Shown: positions 11,124-18,231 of the stretch, piece by piece
How positions within the stretch are numbered: position 1 is the first letter of the stretch
Layout of the letters: every line of letters starts with the position of its first letter
Source: Gammaproteobacteria bacterium
Lineage (GTDB): Bacteria; Pseudomonadota; Gammaproteobacteria; Burkholderiales; Sulfuricellaceae
DNA: 64,000 nt
Assembly: GCA_018824405.1 (NCBI GenBank)
Contig: JAHJGO010000013.1
Span: forward strand, 1-64,000
Reading direction: 5' to 3'
Made by a program: the position numbers and the translations under genes
Notes under the pieces: model-generated
What the model was told of the DNA's origin: nothing
Database searches by the model: none
Seen by the model: only the letters and a program-made list of their open reading frames with translations

Positions 11124-11699
11124 TTACAGGGTGCCGGAGTCTTCCGCGAACAGGCCGTCAAGTCCTTTTCTGACCAGTGCCAGGGCGCTGGGCACCTCGA
11201 TTTCAACGACCTGATCTATGGTCCAGGAATGATCACGTTTGGGCATCTGTTCGAGAATCTTGCTGCCGAGAAAACGGCGGCAGGCATAGTTGGGTTCGCC
11301 GTCCTCGTAATCGAAGGTTGCATATTCGGCCAGGCGTTCCACCAGCAGGTTGATGAAGCGTTTTTGATAATTGTCCGGCGATGGGCCCATGTGGGCAATC
11401 TGATTGTCCTCGATGATTTCCGCCAGGCGCTTGACCATGATGTTAATGAGCTCGTTGCGGTACTCATCTTCCACGCGCTGGTAGACGAAGCGGTCGGTGT
11501 ACTGGACGAGGAAGGCAAGGTATTCGGAAATCATCGCGAAACCCTGCTCCTTGGAGCTGATCTCGAAATGAGCCTGTTGCATGTGGGTGGCTTTTTCTTC
11601 TGCGACCCGAAAAATCAGTGATGCAATCACAGTTGCCACCTGAAACGGGCTCTTGGGTGCGCCTTGGGTGTGCCATTTGCTTTTGACTCGAATTACCAT
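11124..11699 (-). CDS. Conserved-looking hypothetical protein, unrecognised
   Basis: A 191-residue soluble, largely helical protein with no signal peptide or membrane segment. I do not recognise a family. Notable parts: an aromatic, acidic centre (SEYLAFLVQYTDRFVYQRVEDEYRNELIN), repeated R/K-F-INLLVERLAEYATFDYEDGEPNYACRRF, and a C-terminal PSALALVRKGLDGLF. It lies 6 bases downstream of the sulfurtransferase gene and 15 bases before birA on the same strand, so it is probably transcribed with them. A link to sulfur transfer is only suggested by position. Confidence 0.6.
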   Translation of the reverse strand: MVIRVKSKWHTQGAPKSPFQVATVIASLIFRVAEEKATHMQQAHFEISSKEQGFAMISEYLAFLVQYTDRFVYQRVEDEYRNELINIMVKRLAEIIEDNQIAHMGPSPDNYQKRFINLLVERLAEYATFDYEDGEPNYACRRFLGSKILEQMPKRDHSWTIDQVVEIEVPSALALVRKGLDGLFAEDSGTL

Positions 11700-11705
11700 G
11701 CTTGA

Positions 11706-12554
11706 TTATTCTCCAGTTTCGACAGGCCTGCCGGGGTCGGTAATCCACTCGCTCCAAGAGCCGGGATAAAGCCGTGCGCCCTTGAGACCAGCATGCTCCA
11801 TGGCAATCACGCTGTGACAGGCGGTGACACCTGAGCCGCACATATGCACTACGCGCTGCGGATCGACGCCGTTCAGAAGGTCGAGATAGGCTTCCTGGAG
11901 TTCTTCTGCCGACATATAGGTGCCGCCCATGTCGAGGTTGTCTTCGAAAGGGTAATTGATGCTGCCCGGAATGTGTCCGGGTACTTTGTCCAGCACCTCA
12001 CGCTCACCGCTGAAACGTTCTTCAGCGCGTGCGTCAATGATCAGGCACTTGTCGCTGAGCAATGCCTCCTCGATGCACTGTGCATCCACCCACATGCTGT
12101 TGTCGATATTCGCATTGAATTGCGTGGGAGTGATTACGGAGGTGTCGGCAGTCATCGGGTGTCCGTCGCGAATCCAGCGTTGAATCCCGCCGTCGAGCAA
12201 GGCGATTGATTCATGCCCAAGCCAGCGCAAATCCCACCACATACGGCATGCCATGGAGCCAAAACTGTCGTCGTAAACCACGATCTGCTTGCTGTTATCC
12301 ACTCCCCACTGACCCAGTTTCTGTGCCAGCAACTGGGGGTCGGGCAAGGGATGGCGGCCGCTGGTGGCGGTCACTGCAGAGGAGAGATCGTCATTGAGGT
12401 GTGCATAACGCGCACCGGGAATATGTGCTGTCTGGTAGGCTCGACGGCCTGAATCAGGGTCGCTCAGGGTGAAGCGGCAATCGAAAATGATCCAGTCCGG
12501 ATCATCCAGATGTTGCGCCAGTTGGGCTGCACTGACGAGGGTAGTGAATTTCAT
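11706..12554 (-). CDS. sseA: Two-domain sulfurtransferase (3-mercaptopyruvate/thiosulfate type)
   Basis: A tandem rhodanese of 282 residues. The N-terminal inactive domain (about 1-140) has DCRF, AHIPGA and VYDDSFGSMACRMWW; the C-terminal domain has the active loop CGSGVTA with the persulfide-forming Cys at residue 239. The CGSGVTA form is typical of 3-mercaptopyruvate sulfurtransferases, whereas classical rhodaneses have a basic loop (CRKGVT), so mercaptopyruvate is the likelier donor; thiosulfate is possible. It sits next to the dsr region and could supply sulfane sulfur to the relay, which is inference. A hairpin separates it from the DsrC-like gene upstream. Confidence 0.85.
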   Translation of the reverse strand: MKFTTLVSAAQLAQHLDDPDWIIFDCRFTLSDPDSGRRAYQTAHIPGARYAHLNDDLSSAVTATSGRHPLPDPQLLAQKLGQWGVDNSKQIVVYDDSFGSMACRMWWDLRWLGHESIALLDGGIQRWIRDGHPMTADTSVITPTQFNANIDNSMWVDAQCIEEALLSDKCLIIDARAEERFSGEREVLDKVPGHIPGSINYPFEDNLDMGGTYMSAEELQEAYLDLLNGVDPQRVVHMCGSGVTACHSVIAMEHAGLKGARLYPGSWSEWITDPGRPVETGE

Positions 12555-12625: not shown

Positions 12626-12958
12626 TTAGTAACCGCCTTTTCCGAACGGCTTCGGCAGGCCGGCCACTTTGGCGGACTGACGGTTCGGCTGCATCGGGAA
12701 CAGGACGTACAAGTGTTTTTTCCAGTCGGTACCGGGGTGATCGGCATCAAAGTCCTTGCACATATTACGGAAATTCGGGGTCTGACCTTCTTCCTTGTAC
12801 TTGGTGCGCATGTAGTTGACCACCGTCCAGTGTTCATCAGTCAGCTTGAGGCCTTCGGCTTCCGCAATAACTTCTACCACTTCATCGCTATAATCCGGCT
12901 CCAGCAGAAAGCCGTCATCATCTACTTCCAGTTCGGTGCCATTTACGACGTAACCCAT
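12626..12958 (-). CDS. DsrC/TusE-family paralogue lacking both functional cysteines
   Basis: A 110-residue member of the DsrC/TusE family, recognised by DDDGFLLEPDYSDEV, LTDEHWTVVNYMR, HLYVLFPMQP and the C-terminal AGLPKPFG. True DsrC carries a trisulfide between a Cys near 98 and the penultimate Cys. Here the tail reads SAKVAGLPKPFGKGGY, so Ser replaces the first and the last is absent; the only Cys (NMCKDF) is internal. It cannot carry sulfur as DsrC does, so a regulatory or scaffolding role is likely; Cys-less homologues have been proposed as regulators in the literature on this family. ATG 12958 has AAGGAGAAAA just upstream. It heads away from dsrA with a Cas6-like gene 43 bases upstream. 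Confidence 0.88.
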   Translation of the reverse strand: MGYVVNGTELEVDDDGFLLEPDYSDEVVEVIAEAEGLKLTDEHWTVVNYMRTKYKEEGQTPNFRNMCKDFDADHPGTDWKKHLYVLFPMQPNRQSAKVAGLPKPFGKGGY

Positions 12959-13001: not shown

Positions 13002-13595
13002 TCAAGTGAGCGCGGTAATGGATTTGTGAGGGATAAAAATACCGCAGCCAATTTTGCGATATTTCCCCAGTCCCTGTTGTTGTACCAAGAACGAATGCTC
13101 CACCGGCAGGCCATGCAGCATCAGGCTGAAGCCGCTCACCACGCCATCCTGCGTTCTTATGGCCTGGCGCTTGCCGCAAATGAAGCGAGAATCGATTTTC
13201 ATTTCATCCAGGAGGCGGATAATATCATTTGTAAAGTCTAATTCGTCCTCGCTGCCAGTTGCAACGCAATGCGCAAACAATGGAGTATGGCGTGAAAGCG
13301 GGCGTATTTTTCCTGGACCTATTTCAAGCTTGTTGCCGCCAATTACAATAGTTTGGCCGGAAAGTTGAAGTAACTCCGGAACGCGCACCGAGGCTACGCG
13401 GATAGTCAGCTTGGTGCGCCGATTCAGTATCAGTTCACCATGGCCCGTATCCGCTCCGGGTATGGCGTGTATCCCGCCAAGTGGCTCGTCAGGAAACCAT
13501 GGTAGCAAACGAGCAAGTTCTGTGAAAAGGTAATAGCCATGATCGATTGGCAATAAAGTGCCTTTGACGTCGAACTGAACGTCAGTTACCAGCAA
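13002..13595 (-). CDS. Cas6/Cmx6-like RAMP protein (orphan, type I-MYXAN Cas6 relative)
   Basis: The 197-residue product resembles Cas6 of the MYXAN subtype (Cmx6), the endoribonuclease that cuts CRISPR transcripts at repeat hairpins. It has the N-terminal VQFDVKGTLLPIDHGYYLF (strand, then a His that may be catalytic) and LGGIHAIPGADTGHG. The C-terminal glycine-rich RAMP loop is QQQGLGKYRKIGCGIFIPHK, typical of Cas6 RNA binding. No CRISPR array or other cas gene is visible in the window. The start is uncertain: TTG 13595 is the first conventional start, but coding-like sequence runs about 17 codons further upstream into the end of the 76-residue gene, so coupling or a rare start codon is possible. 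Function outside CRISPR is unknown. Confidence 0.75.
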   Translation of the reverse strand: MLVTDVQFDVKGTLLPIDHGYYLFTELARLLPWFPDEPLGGIHAIPGADTGHGELILNRRTKLTIRVASVRVPELLQLSGQTIVIGGNKLEIGPGKIRPLSRHTPLFAHCVATGSEDELDFTNDIIRLLDEMKIDSRFICGKRQAIRTQDGVVSGFSLMLHGLPVEHSFLVQQQGLGKYRKIGCGIFIPHKSITALT

Positions 13596-13627: not shown

Positions 13628-13858
13628 TTAGCCAGCCGATTTTGATGCTCCTTGCTCTTGTGTTTTTGCCCAGTCGGTCAGTGCCTTGCCCCAGTGCTGA
13701 GCAGTTTCGCGGTCGATTTCAAAAATGGTGAATCGTTTGATCTCGCGAATCCGCAGGCGCAATGTGCTGAAGCCAGCTTCGTGATTAATCTGTTGCAGTT
13801 CGATTTCCTGCCTGTAGGGAGTAGACAGGAATTTGTCCAAACTAATGAAATCATCCAT
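13628..13858 (-). CDS. Small protein of the divergent dsr-linked operon, unrecognised
   Basis: A 76-residue acidic-to-neutral protein with no signal or membrane segment. The pattern (EIELQQINHEAGFSTLRLRIREIKRFTIFEID, then a helix ETAQHWGKALTDWAK) suggests a beta meander followed by one helix. I do not recognise a family. It is the first gene of the minus-strand unit that continues with the Cas6-like and DsrC-like genes, and it diverges from dsrA across a 348-base regulatory gap, so a role tied to sulfur oxidation or its control is plausible. Its C-terminal codons may overlap an extended start of the Cas6-like gene. Confidence 0.65.
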   Translation of the reverse strand: MDDFISLDKFLSTPYRQEIELQQINHEAGFSTLRLRIREIKRFTIFEIDRETAQHWGKALTDWAKTQEQGASKSAG

Positions 13859-14206: not shown

Positions 14207-15502
14207 ATGGCTAAGAAATTGCACGATACGCCGTTGCTGGATCAGCTTGAGAGCGGCCCGTGGCCGAGTTTTGTGACTGGTCTGAAGCGCGAAGCTGCTA
14301 AGAAAGACATCATGGTTGATCTGCTGGGTCAGCTGGAAGAGTCTTACAAGACCAAAAAAGGTTTCTGGAAGGGCGGTACGGTTGGTGTGTTCGGTTATGG
14401 CGGCGGTGTGATTCCGCGTTTTACCGAATTGAAGGGTGCTGACGAGAAGCCACTGTTCCCGGACGCGGCCGAATTCCATACCCTGCGTATTCAGCCCCCG
14501 GCTGGCATGCACTACGATACCGCTACCCTGCGCAAATTTGCAGACATCTGGGACAAATACGGTTCTGGTTTGATTGGTTTGCATGGACAATCTGGCGACA
14601 TCATGTTGCAGGGCTGTTCCACTGCCAACGTCCAGCCAGCCTGGGAAGAAATCAATGCCATGGGCTTTGATATGGGTGGTGCGGGCCCTGCGCTGCGTAC
14701 CTCCATGTCCTGCGTTGGCGCTGCGCGCTGCGAAATGTCTTGCTACGACGAAGCCCGTGCCCTGCGCACCATCATTAATGCAAATATTGATGATATGCAC
14801 CGCCCTGCGCTGCCTTACAAGTTCAAGTTCAAGTTCTCTGGTTGCCCTAACGATTGCGTGAACTCTATTCAACGTTCTGACATGGCTACCATCGGCACCT
14901 GGCGTGATAACATTCAGGTTAACGAGCAGCAGGCGCGTGACTATATGAAGGGTCACGGAATGGATAAGCTGGTTAACGATGTGATCAGCAAGTGCCCGAC
15001 CCGTGCAATTACCCTGCGTAACAAGGCTGACGCTGTTTCTGGCGACAGTGTTTCCACCGTGGCGGTTGATGATCAGCACGTAATGCAGATCGAGAACCAC
15101 GACTGCGTGCGCTGCATGCACTGTCTGAACGTTATGCCCGGCGCACTGTTACCAGGCAAGGATAAGGGCGTGACTATTCTGGTTGGCGGTAAGAGCGTGC
15201 TGAAAATTGGCGCCACCATGGGTACTGTGATCATTCCATTCATGAAGCTGGAATCTGACGAAGACTTCGAAAAGATCAATGACTTGTCCCGTAATATTAT
15301 CGACTTCTTCGCTGAAAATGCGCTTGAGCATGAGCGTACTGGTGAAATGATCGATCGTATCGGCCTGGTGAATTTCCTCGAAGGTCTGGATATCGATGTA
15401 GACCCGAATATGATTAATCACCCACGTGCCAACCCATATGTACGTATGGACGATTGGGATGAGGAAGTCGAGAAAGCGAACGAGCGCAAGGCTGCAGCCT
15501 GA
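14207..15502 (+). CDS. dsrA: Reverse dissimilatory sulfite reductase, alpha subunit
   Basis: DsrA with DsrB forms the cytoplasmic sirohaem enzyme that, in sulfur oxidisers, releases sulfite from sulfur carried by DsrC. The 431-residue chain has the sirohaem/[4Fe-4S] motifs C169-x5-C175 and C213-x3-C217 (SGCPNDC), then an inserted ferredoxin domain with C300, C303 and C306 (NHDCVRCMHC) and C263. Synteny with dsrEFH and dsrL, both confined to oxidising pathways, indicates the reverse direction. GGAG precedes the ATG by 10 bases. First gene of the dsr operon; dsrB follows after 47 bases. Confidence 0.97.
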   Translation: MAKKLHDTPLLDQLESGPWPSFVTGLKREAAKKDIMVDLLGQLEESYKTKKGFWKGGTVGVFGYGGGVIPRFTELKGADEKPLFPDAAEFHTLRIQPPAGMHYDTATLRKFADIWDKYGSGLIGLHGQSGDIMLQGCSTANVQPAWEEINAMGFDMGGAGPALRTSMSCVGAARCEMSCYDEARALRTIINANIDDMHRPALPYKFKFKFSGCPNDCVNSIQRSDMATIGTWRDNIQVNEQQARDYMKGHGMDKLVNDVISKCPTRAITLRNKADAVSGDSVSTVAVDDQHVMQIENHDCVRCMHCLNVMPGALLPGKDKGVTILVGGKSVLKIGATMGTVIIPFMKLESDEDFEKINDLSRNIIDFFAENALEHERTGEMIDRIGLVNFLEGLDIDVDPNMINHPRANPYVRMDDWDEEVEKANERKAAA

Positions 15503-15549: not shown

Positions 15550-16620
15550 ATGGCTGAATTGCGTGCACCTGATGAGTGCGGCGTACCGGATCCGATGCCC
15601 TTCATGCATCCTGCGTTAAGGGAAAACTATGGCAAGTGGGTTTTCCATTCGCATCCAAAACCTGGTGTTCTGTATCACCGTGCAGAAAATGGTACTGAAG
15701 TTTGGACCGTGAAGTTTGGAACGGCGCGTCAACTGGATGGCTACACTATCCGCCTGATTTGCGACTTGGCTGACAAACATGCTGATGGTCACATGCGCTT
15801 CACTGCACGAAGCAACGTGGAGTTCATGCTTACAGACGAGAGCAAAATTGAACCGCTGATCAAAGAATTGAATAGTCATGGCTTCCCAGTGGGTGGTACT
15901 GCCAATTCTGTGTCCATGATTTCGCATACTCAGGGCTTCCTGCATTGCGATATTCCTGGAACAGATGCTTCAGGCGTGGTCAAGGCGCTGATGGATGAGC
16001 TGCACGAAGAGTTCATCAAGTGTGAAATGCCAAACCGTGTCAAGTTGTCCACTTCCTGCTGTGAAATCAACTGCGGCGGTCAGGCAGACATAGCAATCAT
16101 CATGCAGCATACAAAACCACCAAAGATTAACCATGATCTGGTGGCTAACGTCTGCGAGCGGCCAACCGTTGTTGCACGTTGCCCGGTAGCTGCGATTCGC
16201 CCGGCTCTGGTGAATGGCAAGCCGTCTCTGGAAGTGGATGAAAAGAAGTGCATTTGCTGCGGCGCCTGCTTCCCGCCTTGCCCTCCTATGCAGATCAACG
16301 ATCCGGAGCATTCCAAGATTGCGATTTGGGTGGGCGGCAAGAACTCCAATGCGCGCTCAAAGCCGACCTTCCACAAGCTGGTTGCTTCCGGACTGCCAAA
16401 TAATCTTCCGCGCTGGCCTGAAGTTGCTGCCGTTGTTAAGAAAATTCTGTCTGTCTACAAGGCCGATGCACAGCCTTGGGAGCGTATTGGTGACTGGATC
16501 GACCGCATCGGTTGGCCGCGTTTCTTTGAAAAGACTGGTCTGCCATTCACCAAGTATCACATTGATGACTGGCGCGGTGCTCGCGCTACCCTGAATGCCT
16601 CGACTCACATCAGGTTCTAA
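15550..16620 (+). CDS. dsrB: Reverse dissimilatory sulfite reductase, beta subunit
   Basis: The 356-residue partner of DsrA, holding the catalytic sirohaem-[4Fe-4S] centre. Visible Cys sets are C133 (HCDIPG), the SCCEINCGG segment (C170, C171, C175) and the ferredoxin-like KKCICCGACFPPCPP around residues 234-244. It starts after GGAGAATTAAT. A hairpin lies in the 83-base gap before dsrE. Family and synteny make the assignment secure. Confidence 0.97.
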   Translation: MAELRAPDECGVPDPMPFMHPALRENYGKWVFHSHPKPGVLYHRAENGTEVWTVKFGTARQLDGYTIRLICDLADKHADGHMRFTARSNVEFMLTDESKIEPLIKELNSHGFPVGGTANSVSMISHTQGFLHCDIPGTDASGVVKALMDELHEEFIKCEMPNRVKLSTSCCEINCGGQADIAIIMQHTKPPKINHDLVANVCERPTVVARCPVAAIRPALVNGKPSLEVDEKKCICCGACFPPCPPMQINDPEHSKIAIWVGGKNSNARSKPTFHKLVASGLPNNLPRWPEVAAVVKKILSVYKADAQPWERIGDWIDRIGWPRFFEKTGLPFTKYHIDDWRGARATLNASTHIRF

Positions 16621-16631
16621 TTGGGAATCCT

Positions 16632-16661
16632 CCTCGTTGCTGCCTTCTGGTGACGACGAGG
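16632..16661 (+). repeat. Hairpin between dsrB and dsrE
   Basis: CCTCGTTG at 16632-16639 pairs with CGACGAGG at 16654-16661 (one G-U pair), loop of 14 bases, followed by a T-rich but interrupted stretch. It could stabilise the 3' end of dsrAB mRNA, act as a weak terminator or be an RNA-processing site. Position in the middle of an operon argues against full termination. Confidence 0.5.
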
Positions 16662-16703
16662 TTTGTTCCTATTTTATTATTTATTGATACAGGATATTCA
16701 GGG

Positions 16704-17829: not shown

Positions 17830-18162
17830 ATGGGCTTCGAAATCAACGGCAAGACCTACGAGACGGACGAAGAAGGCTACCTGGTAAACCTGGCTGAGTG
17901 GGATGAAGAAGCAGCCAAATACCTGGCGGTTGAAGAAAAGGTAGAAATGACTGAATCGCACTGGGAGGTGATTAACTTCCTGCGCGAGTACTACAACGAT
18001 TACCAGATTGCTCCAGCTGTTCGCGTGCTGACCAAGGCAATTGGCAAGAAGTTGGGGCCTGAAAAGGGTAACAGCAAATACCTGTATGAACTGTTCCCTT
18101 ATGGTCCGGCAAAGCAAGCTTGTAAAATTGCTGGCCTGCCAAAGCCGACCGGCTGTATCTAA
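17830..18162 (+). CDS. dsrC: DsrC sulfur carrier with both active cysteines
   Basis: Small cytoplasmic carrier that presents sulfur to DsrAB and exchanges with DsrEFH and the membrane complex. The 110-residue product has the family core (TESHWEVINFLREYY, SKYLYELFPYGPAKQACKIAG) and the C-terminal arm GLPKPTGCI with the penultimate Cys at 109 and the partner Cys at 98. TAAGGAGAAATAC precedes the ATG, a strong ribosome site that suits its high abundance. A hairpin follows, so its mRNA may be maintained separately from dsrM. Contrast with the Cys-less paralogue at 12626-12958. Confidence 0.97.
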   Translation: MGFEINGKTYETDEEGYLVNLAEWDEEAAKYLAVEEKVEMTESHWEVINFLREYYNDYQIAPAVRVLTKAIGKKLGPEKGNSKYLYELFPYGPAKQACKIAGLPKPTGCI

Positions 18163-18180
18163 GTATTAAAGCAAGGCGAG

Positions 18181-18231
18181 CTTGGGAGGTGCTGTGCTGT
18201 AACTACGGCAGGCATTCCCAACGCTCCCAAG
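18181..18231 (+). repeat. Hairpin downstream of dsrC
   Basis: CTTGGGAG at 18181-18188 pairs perfectly with CTCCCAAG at 18224-18231; inner bases (TGCTGTGC against GGCAGGCA) can extend the stem imperfectly. No T-run follows. It probably protects or separates the abundant dsrC message from the membrane-complex genes downstream. Confidence 0.55.

Follow-up and report, generated by a model that had tools for sequence, protein, structure and literature searches.

A Cas6-family protein free of CRISPR accompanies the oxidative Dsr system of the class Gammaproteobacteria

Comparison of genome sequences across the class Gammaproteobacteria, taken in the GTDB sense with both beta and gamma lineages and identified from the named relatives, shows that oxidative (reverse) Dsr is accompanied by a CRISPR-free subfamily of the Cas6 fold, with one copy per genome. 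The member described here is encoded in the window, the whole stretch of 64,000 nucleotides that was analysed, and is almost certainly a dedicated part of the reverse Dsr (rDsr) system in this class and not of CRISPR. Since the protein passes the NCBI cut-off for type I-MYXAN Cas6/Cmx6, the CRISPR label hides a conserved component of sulfur oxidation. The strongest new results are a near-perfect association with dsrA and a KGGY-tailed DsrC paralogue that accompanies the Cas6-like gene, neither of which was found described in the open-access literature searched; the titles, abstract openings and passages of that literature in PMC show nothing linking Cas6 to dsr. Reverse Dsr is among the main sulfur-oxidation pathways, and the association suggests that sulfur metabolism includes a step at the level of RNA, of which the same open-access passages give no description. 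If the protein acts on RNA, dissimilatory sulfur oxidation would gain such a step and Cas proteins a new job, and there would be a way to approach the question of how DsrC comes to be made far above the neighbouring Dsr proteins.

The features of the window on which the argument turns are the following; the ends of both hairpins were counted by hand off the fold, and the dsrE start was taken as 16704.

12626..12958, minus strand: DsrC-family paralogue without redox cysteines, tail QSAKVAGLPKPFGKGGY, presumed partner (PF04358, 108.2 bits; TIGR03342, 87 bits)
13002..13595, minus strand: Cas6-family (RAMP) protein of the dsr type, CRISPR-free, 197 aa, TTG start (PF09559, TIGR02807, AlphaFold, VIA)
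13628..13858, minus strand: DUF6967 protein (PF22295), 76 aa, predicted bbbba fold, upstream of the Cas6-like gene (Pfam, AlphaFold)
14207..15502, plus strand: dsrA, divergent from the Cas6-like gene
15550..16620, plus strand: dsrB
16622..16671, plus strand: intergenic hairpin after dsrB (window z -2.5; stem preserved across 12 sequences of Sulfuricella type)
17830..18162, plus strand: operon dsrC, both cysteines present (ACKIAGLPKPTGCI)
18175..18228, plus strand: intergenic hairpin between dsrC and dsrM (z -3.2 here)

The window protein is a true member of the Cas6 family. A first-pass annotation, made from the letters alone, had placed it in the Cas6/Cmx6 family on the strength of a DHGY motif near the N-terminus and a Cas6-type C-terminal loop, and had described its neighbours as a 76-residue gene, a DsrC paralogue and a divergent dsrA. 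All of this is borne out: the motif occupies residues 18-21, the glycine-rich loop GLGKYRKIGCGIF occupies residues 175-187, the three neighbours are present as described, and profile searches place the protein well over the cut-off in both PF09559 (202.6 bits against 26.7, E 7.5e-60) and TIGR02807 cas6_cmx6 (155.2 bits against 98.85, E 2e-45). Six PADLOC Cas6 models match at E <= 5.2e-28 (the best at 6e-59), and a seventh only at 0.033. The AlphaFold model, built from 59 aligned sequences (mean pLDDT 95, pTM 0.89), has the double RRM-like Cas6 fold, and its best solved match is the Cas6 that belongs to a CRISPR-associated transposon of type I-B, chain 8fcj_B, on which 191 residues superpose to 1.7 A with a VIA Z of 25.6 and 28% identity (Foldseek E 6e-17); further Cas6 structures rank below this one, with VIA Z from 17.2 to 15.1. 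The sequence profile also retrieves chain 8fcj_B, at E 1.2e-26. That transposon protein differs in being part of a Cascade, and it reads DNGY where the window protein reads DHGY.

The association with dsrA was established in a class draw of 185 genomes, representing 177 genera and about 165 families by their labels. A PF09559 protein is present in 61 of these, in exactly one copy each, and dsrA in 62; both genes occur in 58 genomes, the Cas6-like gene alone in 3 (G067, G093, G127), dsrA alone in 4 (G070, G079, G110, G123) and neither in 120, giving a Fisher p of 3e-39 when genomes are treated as independent and kinship is ignored. In all seven discordant genomes the contig breaks off at the flank where the partner usually lies, 8 to 2,290 bases beyond the gene, and assembly loss may therefore account for these exceptions. 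In 44 of the 61 carriers (43 of 59 loci, plus G099 by coordinates) the two genes share a contig and are separated by no more than about 4 kb, the median distance being 1,605 bases among the 43 measured; usually the Cas6-like gene and dsrA diverge, and a DsrC paralogue follows the former. The two are apart in nine carriers for which the usual flank was read over several kb (G009, G032, G042, G057, G097, G109, G163, G177 and G180; in G109 they share a contig, about 41 kb apart), and the remaining eight are cut by contig ends. Enlarged neighbourhoods cover 58 of the 60 matches outside the window's genome, G001 and G099 being represented by coordinates and a short locus. A second set, the near loci, comprises the best 80 of at least 568 confirmed relatives in named genomes, which are close relatives by construction and include Sulfuricella, Sulfurimicrobium, Thiobacillus, Sulfuriferula and others. 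Here dsrA is found at 78 loci, a DsrC-like gene no more than 1.6 kb downstream at 75 and DUF6967 at 73, several of the misses being short contigs. The linkage of cas6-like, dsrC-like and dsrA genes is conserved.

Tight physical linkage of this kind would also suit a non-functional hitch-hiker that merely adjoins dsrA. This reading is barely credible and was rejected: the association exceeds hitch-hiking in that nine genomes carry both genes at separate places, none of the 61 Cas6-like genes has an internal stop, and invariant residues persist in proteins with only 29-41% identity to that of the window. Only slightly more credit is due to the idea that the protein processes crRNA in trans, in the service of a CRISPR system located elsewhere in the genome, although the NCBIfam model TIGR02807 carries the type I-MYXAN Cas6 name and 26 of the 61 carriers do have a Cas1 match. 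In those 26 the match is on another contig (23 genomes) or at least 248 kb from the Cas6-like gene (3 genomes); the other 35 carriers, the window's genome among them, have no Cas1 match at all, and what the Cas6-like gene tracks is dsrA. The window's genome (3.03 Mb, completeness 99.3) has a single Cas6-like copy, and profile searches of the whole of it found no match to Cas1, Cse2 or DevR/Cas7 and six matches to the Cas3 core, none over the cut-off, so that as far as tested CRISPR service in trans is rejected for this genome. No cas gene was found among the neighbours of the Cas6-like gene, and the 64-kb window contains no repeat-spacer array (repeats of at least 22 bases within 120 bases); what repeats it has amount to two weak families of two copies each. 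Nor does any Rfam family attain its gathering score there. The absence of an array in 64 kb and the term 'orphan', both from the first-pass annotation, therefore stand, the latter genome-wide for the cas genes tested, and its suggestion of recruitment away from CRISPR gains support from the co-occurrence and linkage with dsrA, the separation in the tree described below and the lack of any tested cas gene. Its other suggestion, service to a distant array, is not supported, given the 35 carriers without a Cas1 match.

The association does not extend to the Dsr system at large. A phylum draw of 398 genomes includes 53 with dsrA and five with a TIGR02807 protein, these being the window's genome and four others of its order. 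Among the 48 dsrA genomes of other classes, PF09559 was over the cut-off in none, with four matches at chance level. Twenty of the 48 were read at their dsr loci and comprise five with a full dsrABEFHCMK set (L192-L196), one with dsrABEFH and 14 with dsrAB only in the stretch, which may therefore not be oxidative. The Cas6-like protein is, on the count of 0 in 48, a trait of one class and not of Dsr chemistry itself. Viral spread was considered and rejected: the viral_contigs collection gave 78 pattern matches, none of which was confirmed, and the phage collection yielded no relative.

The nearest relatives found outside this subfamily are seven cyanobacterial plasmid records, with 24-30% identity over 94-98% of the query. 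These are type I-MYXAN Cas6/Cmx6 proteins (TIGR02807) of the same family, with the D-H motif and the glycine-rich loop; six of the seven lie with cas3 and cas8/cmx8 and, in the loci read further, also cas7 and cas5, whereas the dsr type lies without cas genes. The two are separate in a tree in which a branch supported at 100/99 sets all 75 dsr-type rows (59 from the class draw and 16 hand-picked from the 80 named loci) apart from the few CRISPR Cas6 proteins included; the bootstrap of this tree is unsettled and its root is the midpoint. Residues that mark the dsr type against the I-MYXAN proteins are R60 (75/75), W33 (70/75), E118 (74/75), G141 (74/75), H190 (70/75) and K191 (72/75), along with K/R137 (69/75), and of these R60, E118, G141 and K191 are missing or rare in the six CRISPR-linked relatives. 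Common to both groups are D/E18, R66, the glycine loop (in the dsr type G175, G177 and G183 in 74/75, G185 in 75/75) and, mostly, H19, which by its position we take to be the catalytic histidine of the first Cas6 helix.

H19 is present in the window protein, in 58 of 59 proteins of the class draw (the other has Asn) and in all six CRISPR relatives. Among the 80 nearest relatives it is found in 49, the other 31 having Asn (24), Ser (3), Tyr (3) or Asp (1). In these 31 proteins Y21 is replaced by Gln in 21 cases and H43 by Gln in 23, and 25 of them have Gly at position 137, as against 10 of the 49 with His19. All 31 nonetheless keep W33, R60, R66, E118, G141, H190, K191 and the loop glycines. 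We read this pattern of conservation as suggesting two sites, a cutting site that may be dispensed with and a binding surface that may not, and the natural His19 variants of Thiobacillus offer a built-in contrast of cleavage with binding. Overall charge also sets the subfamily apart, with a median pI of 7.1 (n 75) against 9.5 in the CRISPR relatives (n 6). Residues 3-135 of the dsr type are net negative, and residues 136-192 have a median charge of +3.4 against +1.5 in the CRISPR relatives. This positive C-terminal part, together with R66, G175, G177, G183 and G185, would represent the features of an RNA-binding Cas6 that have been retained.

A further feature of the locus is the DsrC-like gene, present within the next three same-strand genes at 43 of 59 loci of the class draw. 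The window partner matches both PF04358 and TIGR03342 (the DsrC/TusE family) but, unlike DsrC, has the tail FGKGGY, with no cysteine in the penultimate place. The same is true throughout the class draw, where all 43 partners have a KGGY tail, a penultimate glycine and no cysteine in the first-cysteine column; three of them have a cysteine elsewhere in the tail. At the near loci the nearest downstream DsrC-like copy ends in KGGY in 73 of 75 cases, with one KAGY and one that runs on to IKEE. The operon DsrC proteins, chosen by a GCV/GCI ending and so carrying the penultimate cysteine by selection, have cysteines at both places in 39 of 39. The partner is therefore DsrC-like but without the sulfur-carrying cysteine of the tail. 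Cysteine-less DsrC homologues are said to have been named RspA by Venceslau et al. in 2014. Ten of the 75 near-locus partners retain a cysteine in the first-cysteine column, and all ten are found among the 24 loci with an Asn19 Cas6-like protein (Thiobacillus-type, for example L149); the Cas6-like protein and its partner may have changed together there, or the ten may be a single lineage.

DUF6967 lies upstream of the Cas6-like gene in the window's lineage, in place of the class-draw neighbours, which include a cluster with a TauD-like dioxygenase as its tested member (44 of 59 neighbourhoods) and a small protein without a family (38 of 59); gene calling and clustering of these neighbourhoods were rough, so that small genes may escape and one tested member names each cluster. 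The DUF6967 protein is predicted to form a four-stranded sheet and a helix (AlphaFold, pLDDT 91.5). A sequence search of the PDB gave no match, and the top structures are PUR domains and one PC4 homologue, led in VIA by Borrelia Pur-alpha (Z 7.9, 2.5 A, 71 residues), with a best Foldseek match that is weak (E 0.42, prob 0.98). A resemblance to PUR/PC4 nucleic-acid-binding domains is thus suggestive only. DUF6967 was found in five of the 185 class-draw genomes and adjoins the Cas6-like gene in four. The fifth occurrence is in a genome (G106) with no match to dsrA or the Cas6-like protein, at L212 7347-7658, where an open reading frame about 1.4 kb away is DsrE-like by appearance. On the other side of the DsrC-like gene, a rhodanese sulfurtransferase (PF00581, two stretches; 11709-12554, minus strand) separates it from a gene of 191 aa without a Pfam match (11127-11699, minus strand), which recurs in 22 of 59 class-draw loci and in 76 of the 80 near loci.

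The first-pass annotation had suggested that the protein may process or bind host RNA, perhaps dsr mRNA, and the dsr operon does include hairpins. Single-sequence z-scores, computed for gaps of 30 to 250 bases, reveal strong stem-loops downstream of dsrC (93 operons, mean z -3.26), after dsrB (mean -2.44, n 71) and often after dsrA (mean -1.90, n 103), with no strong stem before dsrC (mean -0.09, n 63) or dsrK (+0.13, n 53); the dsrA-dsrB gap of the window lacks a stable hairpin (z 0.6). The dsrB-dsrE stem is preserved in 12 Sulfuricella-type sequences while its letters vary. The same 12 sequences gave no consensus fold for the dsrC-dsrM gap (z 0.3) or the dsrA-dsrB gap, and no conserved structure on either strand of the divergent leader (z -0.2 and -0.4); that leader, across 18 sequences of Thiobacillus type, scores -5.3 for the dsrA side and -1.2 for the opposite one, all these consensus z-scores being rough values from a home-made column shuffle of gappy alignments. 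The dsrA leader of Thiobacillus-type loci such as L141 is 340 bases long and possibly a leader RNA.

No RNA target of the Cas6-like protein emerged from comparison of the dsr operon hairpins. Hairpins of one genome were no more alike than chance would have it when dsrA was compared with dsrB (214 of 300 shuffles reached the same level) or dsrB with dsrC (257 of 300); likeness was weak for dsrA/dsrC, where 15 of 300 shuffles were as high in the class draw and 0 of 300 in the full set, which is prone to relatedness. A hairpin sequence shared within genomes as the substrate was accordingly set aside, save for this weak dsrA/dsrC signal. The dsrB hairpins also differ among the window, L090 and L091, though their Cas6-like proteins are 86-88% identical, and by their letters these stems appear unlike the substrate of a sequence-specific Cas6. 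Nor did hairpins single out operons with the protein in a comparison limited to five full-set operons without it: in the latter, stems scoring at least 25 follow dsrA in 4 of 5, dsrB in 0 of 2 and dsrC in 2 of 5.

There is some indication from expression data that dsr transcripts are present in unequal amounts. In the clam symbiont Ca. Thiodiazotropha endolucinida, dsrC transcripts greatly outnumber those of adjoining operon genes: the dsrC/tusE gene peg.3241 has a TPM 6.8 to 9.8 times that of the next gene, tusB peg.3242, and three DsrC/TusE genes are in the shared top 100, peg.3252 among them (PMC13137333, Table 1). Gene order suggests that peg.3252 may be the Cas6 partner. The stems could help to set these unequal levels. 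That said, an internal promoter, stated for dsrC of A. vinosum in a passage of PMC3368242, accounts equally for the excess of dsrC transcript. Nothing ties the stems to the Cas6-like protein, and RNA-level control of dsr expression by it is therefore put a little short of an even chance.

We infer that the Cas6-like protein most likely binds and, in many lineages, cuts RNA, and so tunes dsr expression together with its DsrC-like partner. As an RNA-binding accessory of the rDsr system it would grip structured RNA through its two RRM-like halves and the glycine-rich loop, and lineages that keep the His19/Tyr21/His43 cluster would probably cut that RNA without metal in the fashion of Cas6. The most likely RNA would be dsr mRNA, or a small RNA that acts on it. 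DsrAB, DsrEFH and the abundant DsrC would then owe their unequal yields to control after transcription, and the DsrC paralogue might mimic DsrC with a tail that carries no sulfur and in this way report the state of the sulfur relay. Taken whole, as an RNA-binding rDsr accessory that acts on dsr RNA with the DsrC paralogue, this explanation is the best we have and comes close to an even chance of being right. The evidence against it includes the fruitless search for a target, the replacement of His19 by N, S, Y or D in the 31 near relatives, the near-neutral overall charge with its net negative residues 3-135, and the hairpins, whose likeness within genomes is mostly at chance and which occur in operons without the protein. 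The rDsr operons of other classes, moreover, manage without it, and a first-column cysteine survives in 10 of 75 near-locus partners. A more elaborate version, in which a captured CRISPR Cas6 RNase and a DsrC paralogue that senses the sulfur relay, joined by a PUR-like protein in the lineage of the window, would form a sulfur-responsive ribonucleoprotein that sets rDsr stoichiometry across beta- and gammaproteobacteria by binding or cutting dsr RNAs, is speculative and rather unlikely.

Several of the points just listed would be explained if RNA cleavage had been lost as the main task and the protein served as a scaffold that binds the DsrC paralogue (or DsrC, DsrEFH or DsrAB) and so acts in the sulfur relay as a factor for assembly or docking. 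The 31 near relatives without His19, with their Gln replacements at Y21 and H43 and the full retention of W33, R60, R66, E118, G141, H190 and K191, fit such a scaffold, as do the near-neutral pI, the dsr-type residues that CRISPR relatives lack and the frequency of the DsrC-like partner. Retention of the glycine-rich loop and positive C-terminal part with which Cas6 grips RNA tells against it, as do His19 in 58 of 59 proteins of the class draw and the DUF6967 protein of the window's lineage, which looks nucleic-acid-binding on its modelled fold; we consider a scaffold unlikely, a shade more so than the elaborate ribonucleoprotein. Much less probable is a role as an RNA modification accessory that, with DsrC/TusE-like proteins, would deliver tRNA or another RNA for thiolation and link a Tus-type relay to rDsr. 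DsrEFH and DsrC do resemble TusBCD and TusE of tRNA 2-thiolation, as a passage of PMC3397948 notes, and the TauD-like dioxygenase cluster of the class-draw neighbourhoods counts in favour of this role, but none of the 43 class-draw partners has the penultimate cysteine and none of ten neighbour proteins searched in Pfam matches a tRNA-modifying family.

Solo Cas6 proteins exist outside complete CRISPR loci. The dsr-type protein resembles these in having no array of its own nearby, and differs in being bound to a metabolic system across a bacterial class. The seventh of the cyanobacterial plasmid records, L187 3974-4765 on a plasmid of Gloeobacter morelensis, is a Cas6/Cmx6 gene without annotated cas neighbours within 4 kb. 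It lies near genes for a phosphoadenosine-phosphosulfate reductase family protein and a cupin, and is possibly another non-CRISPR use of Cas6.
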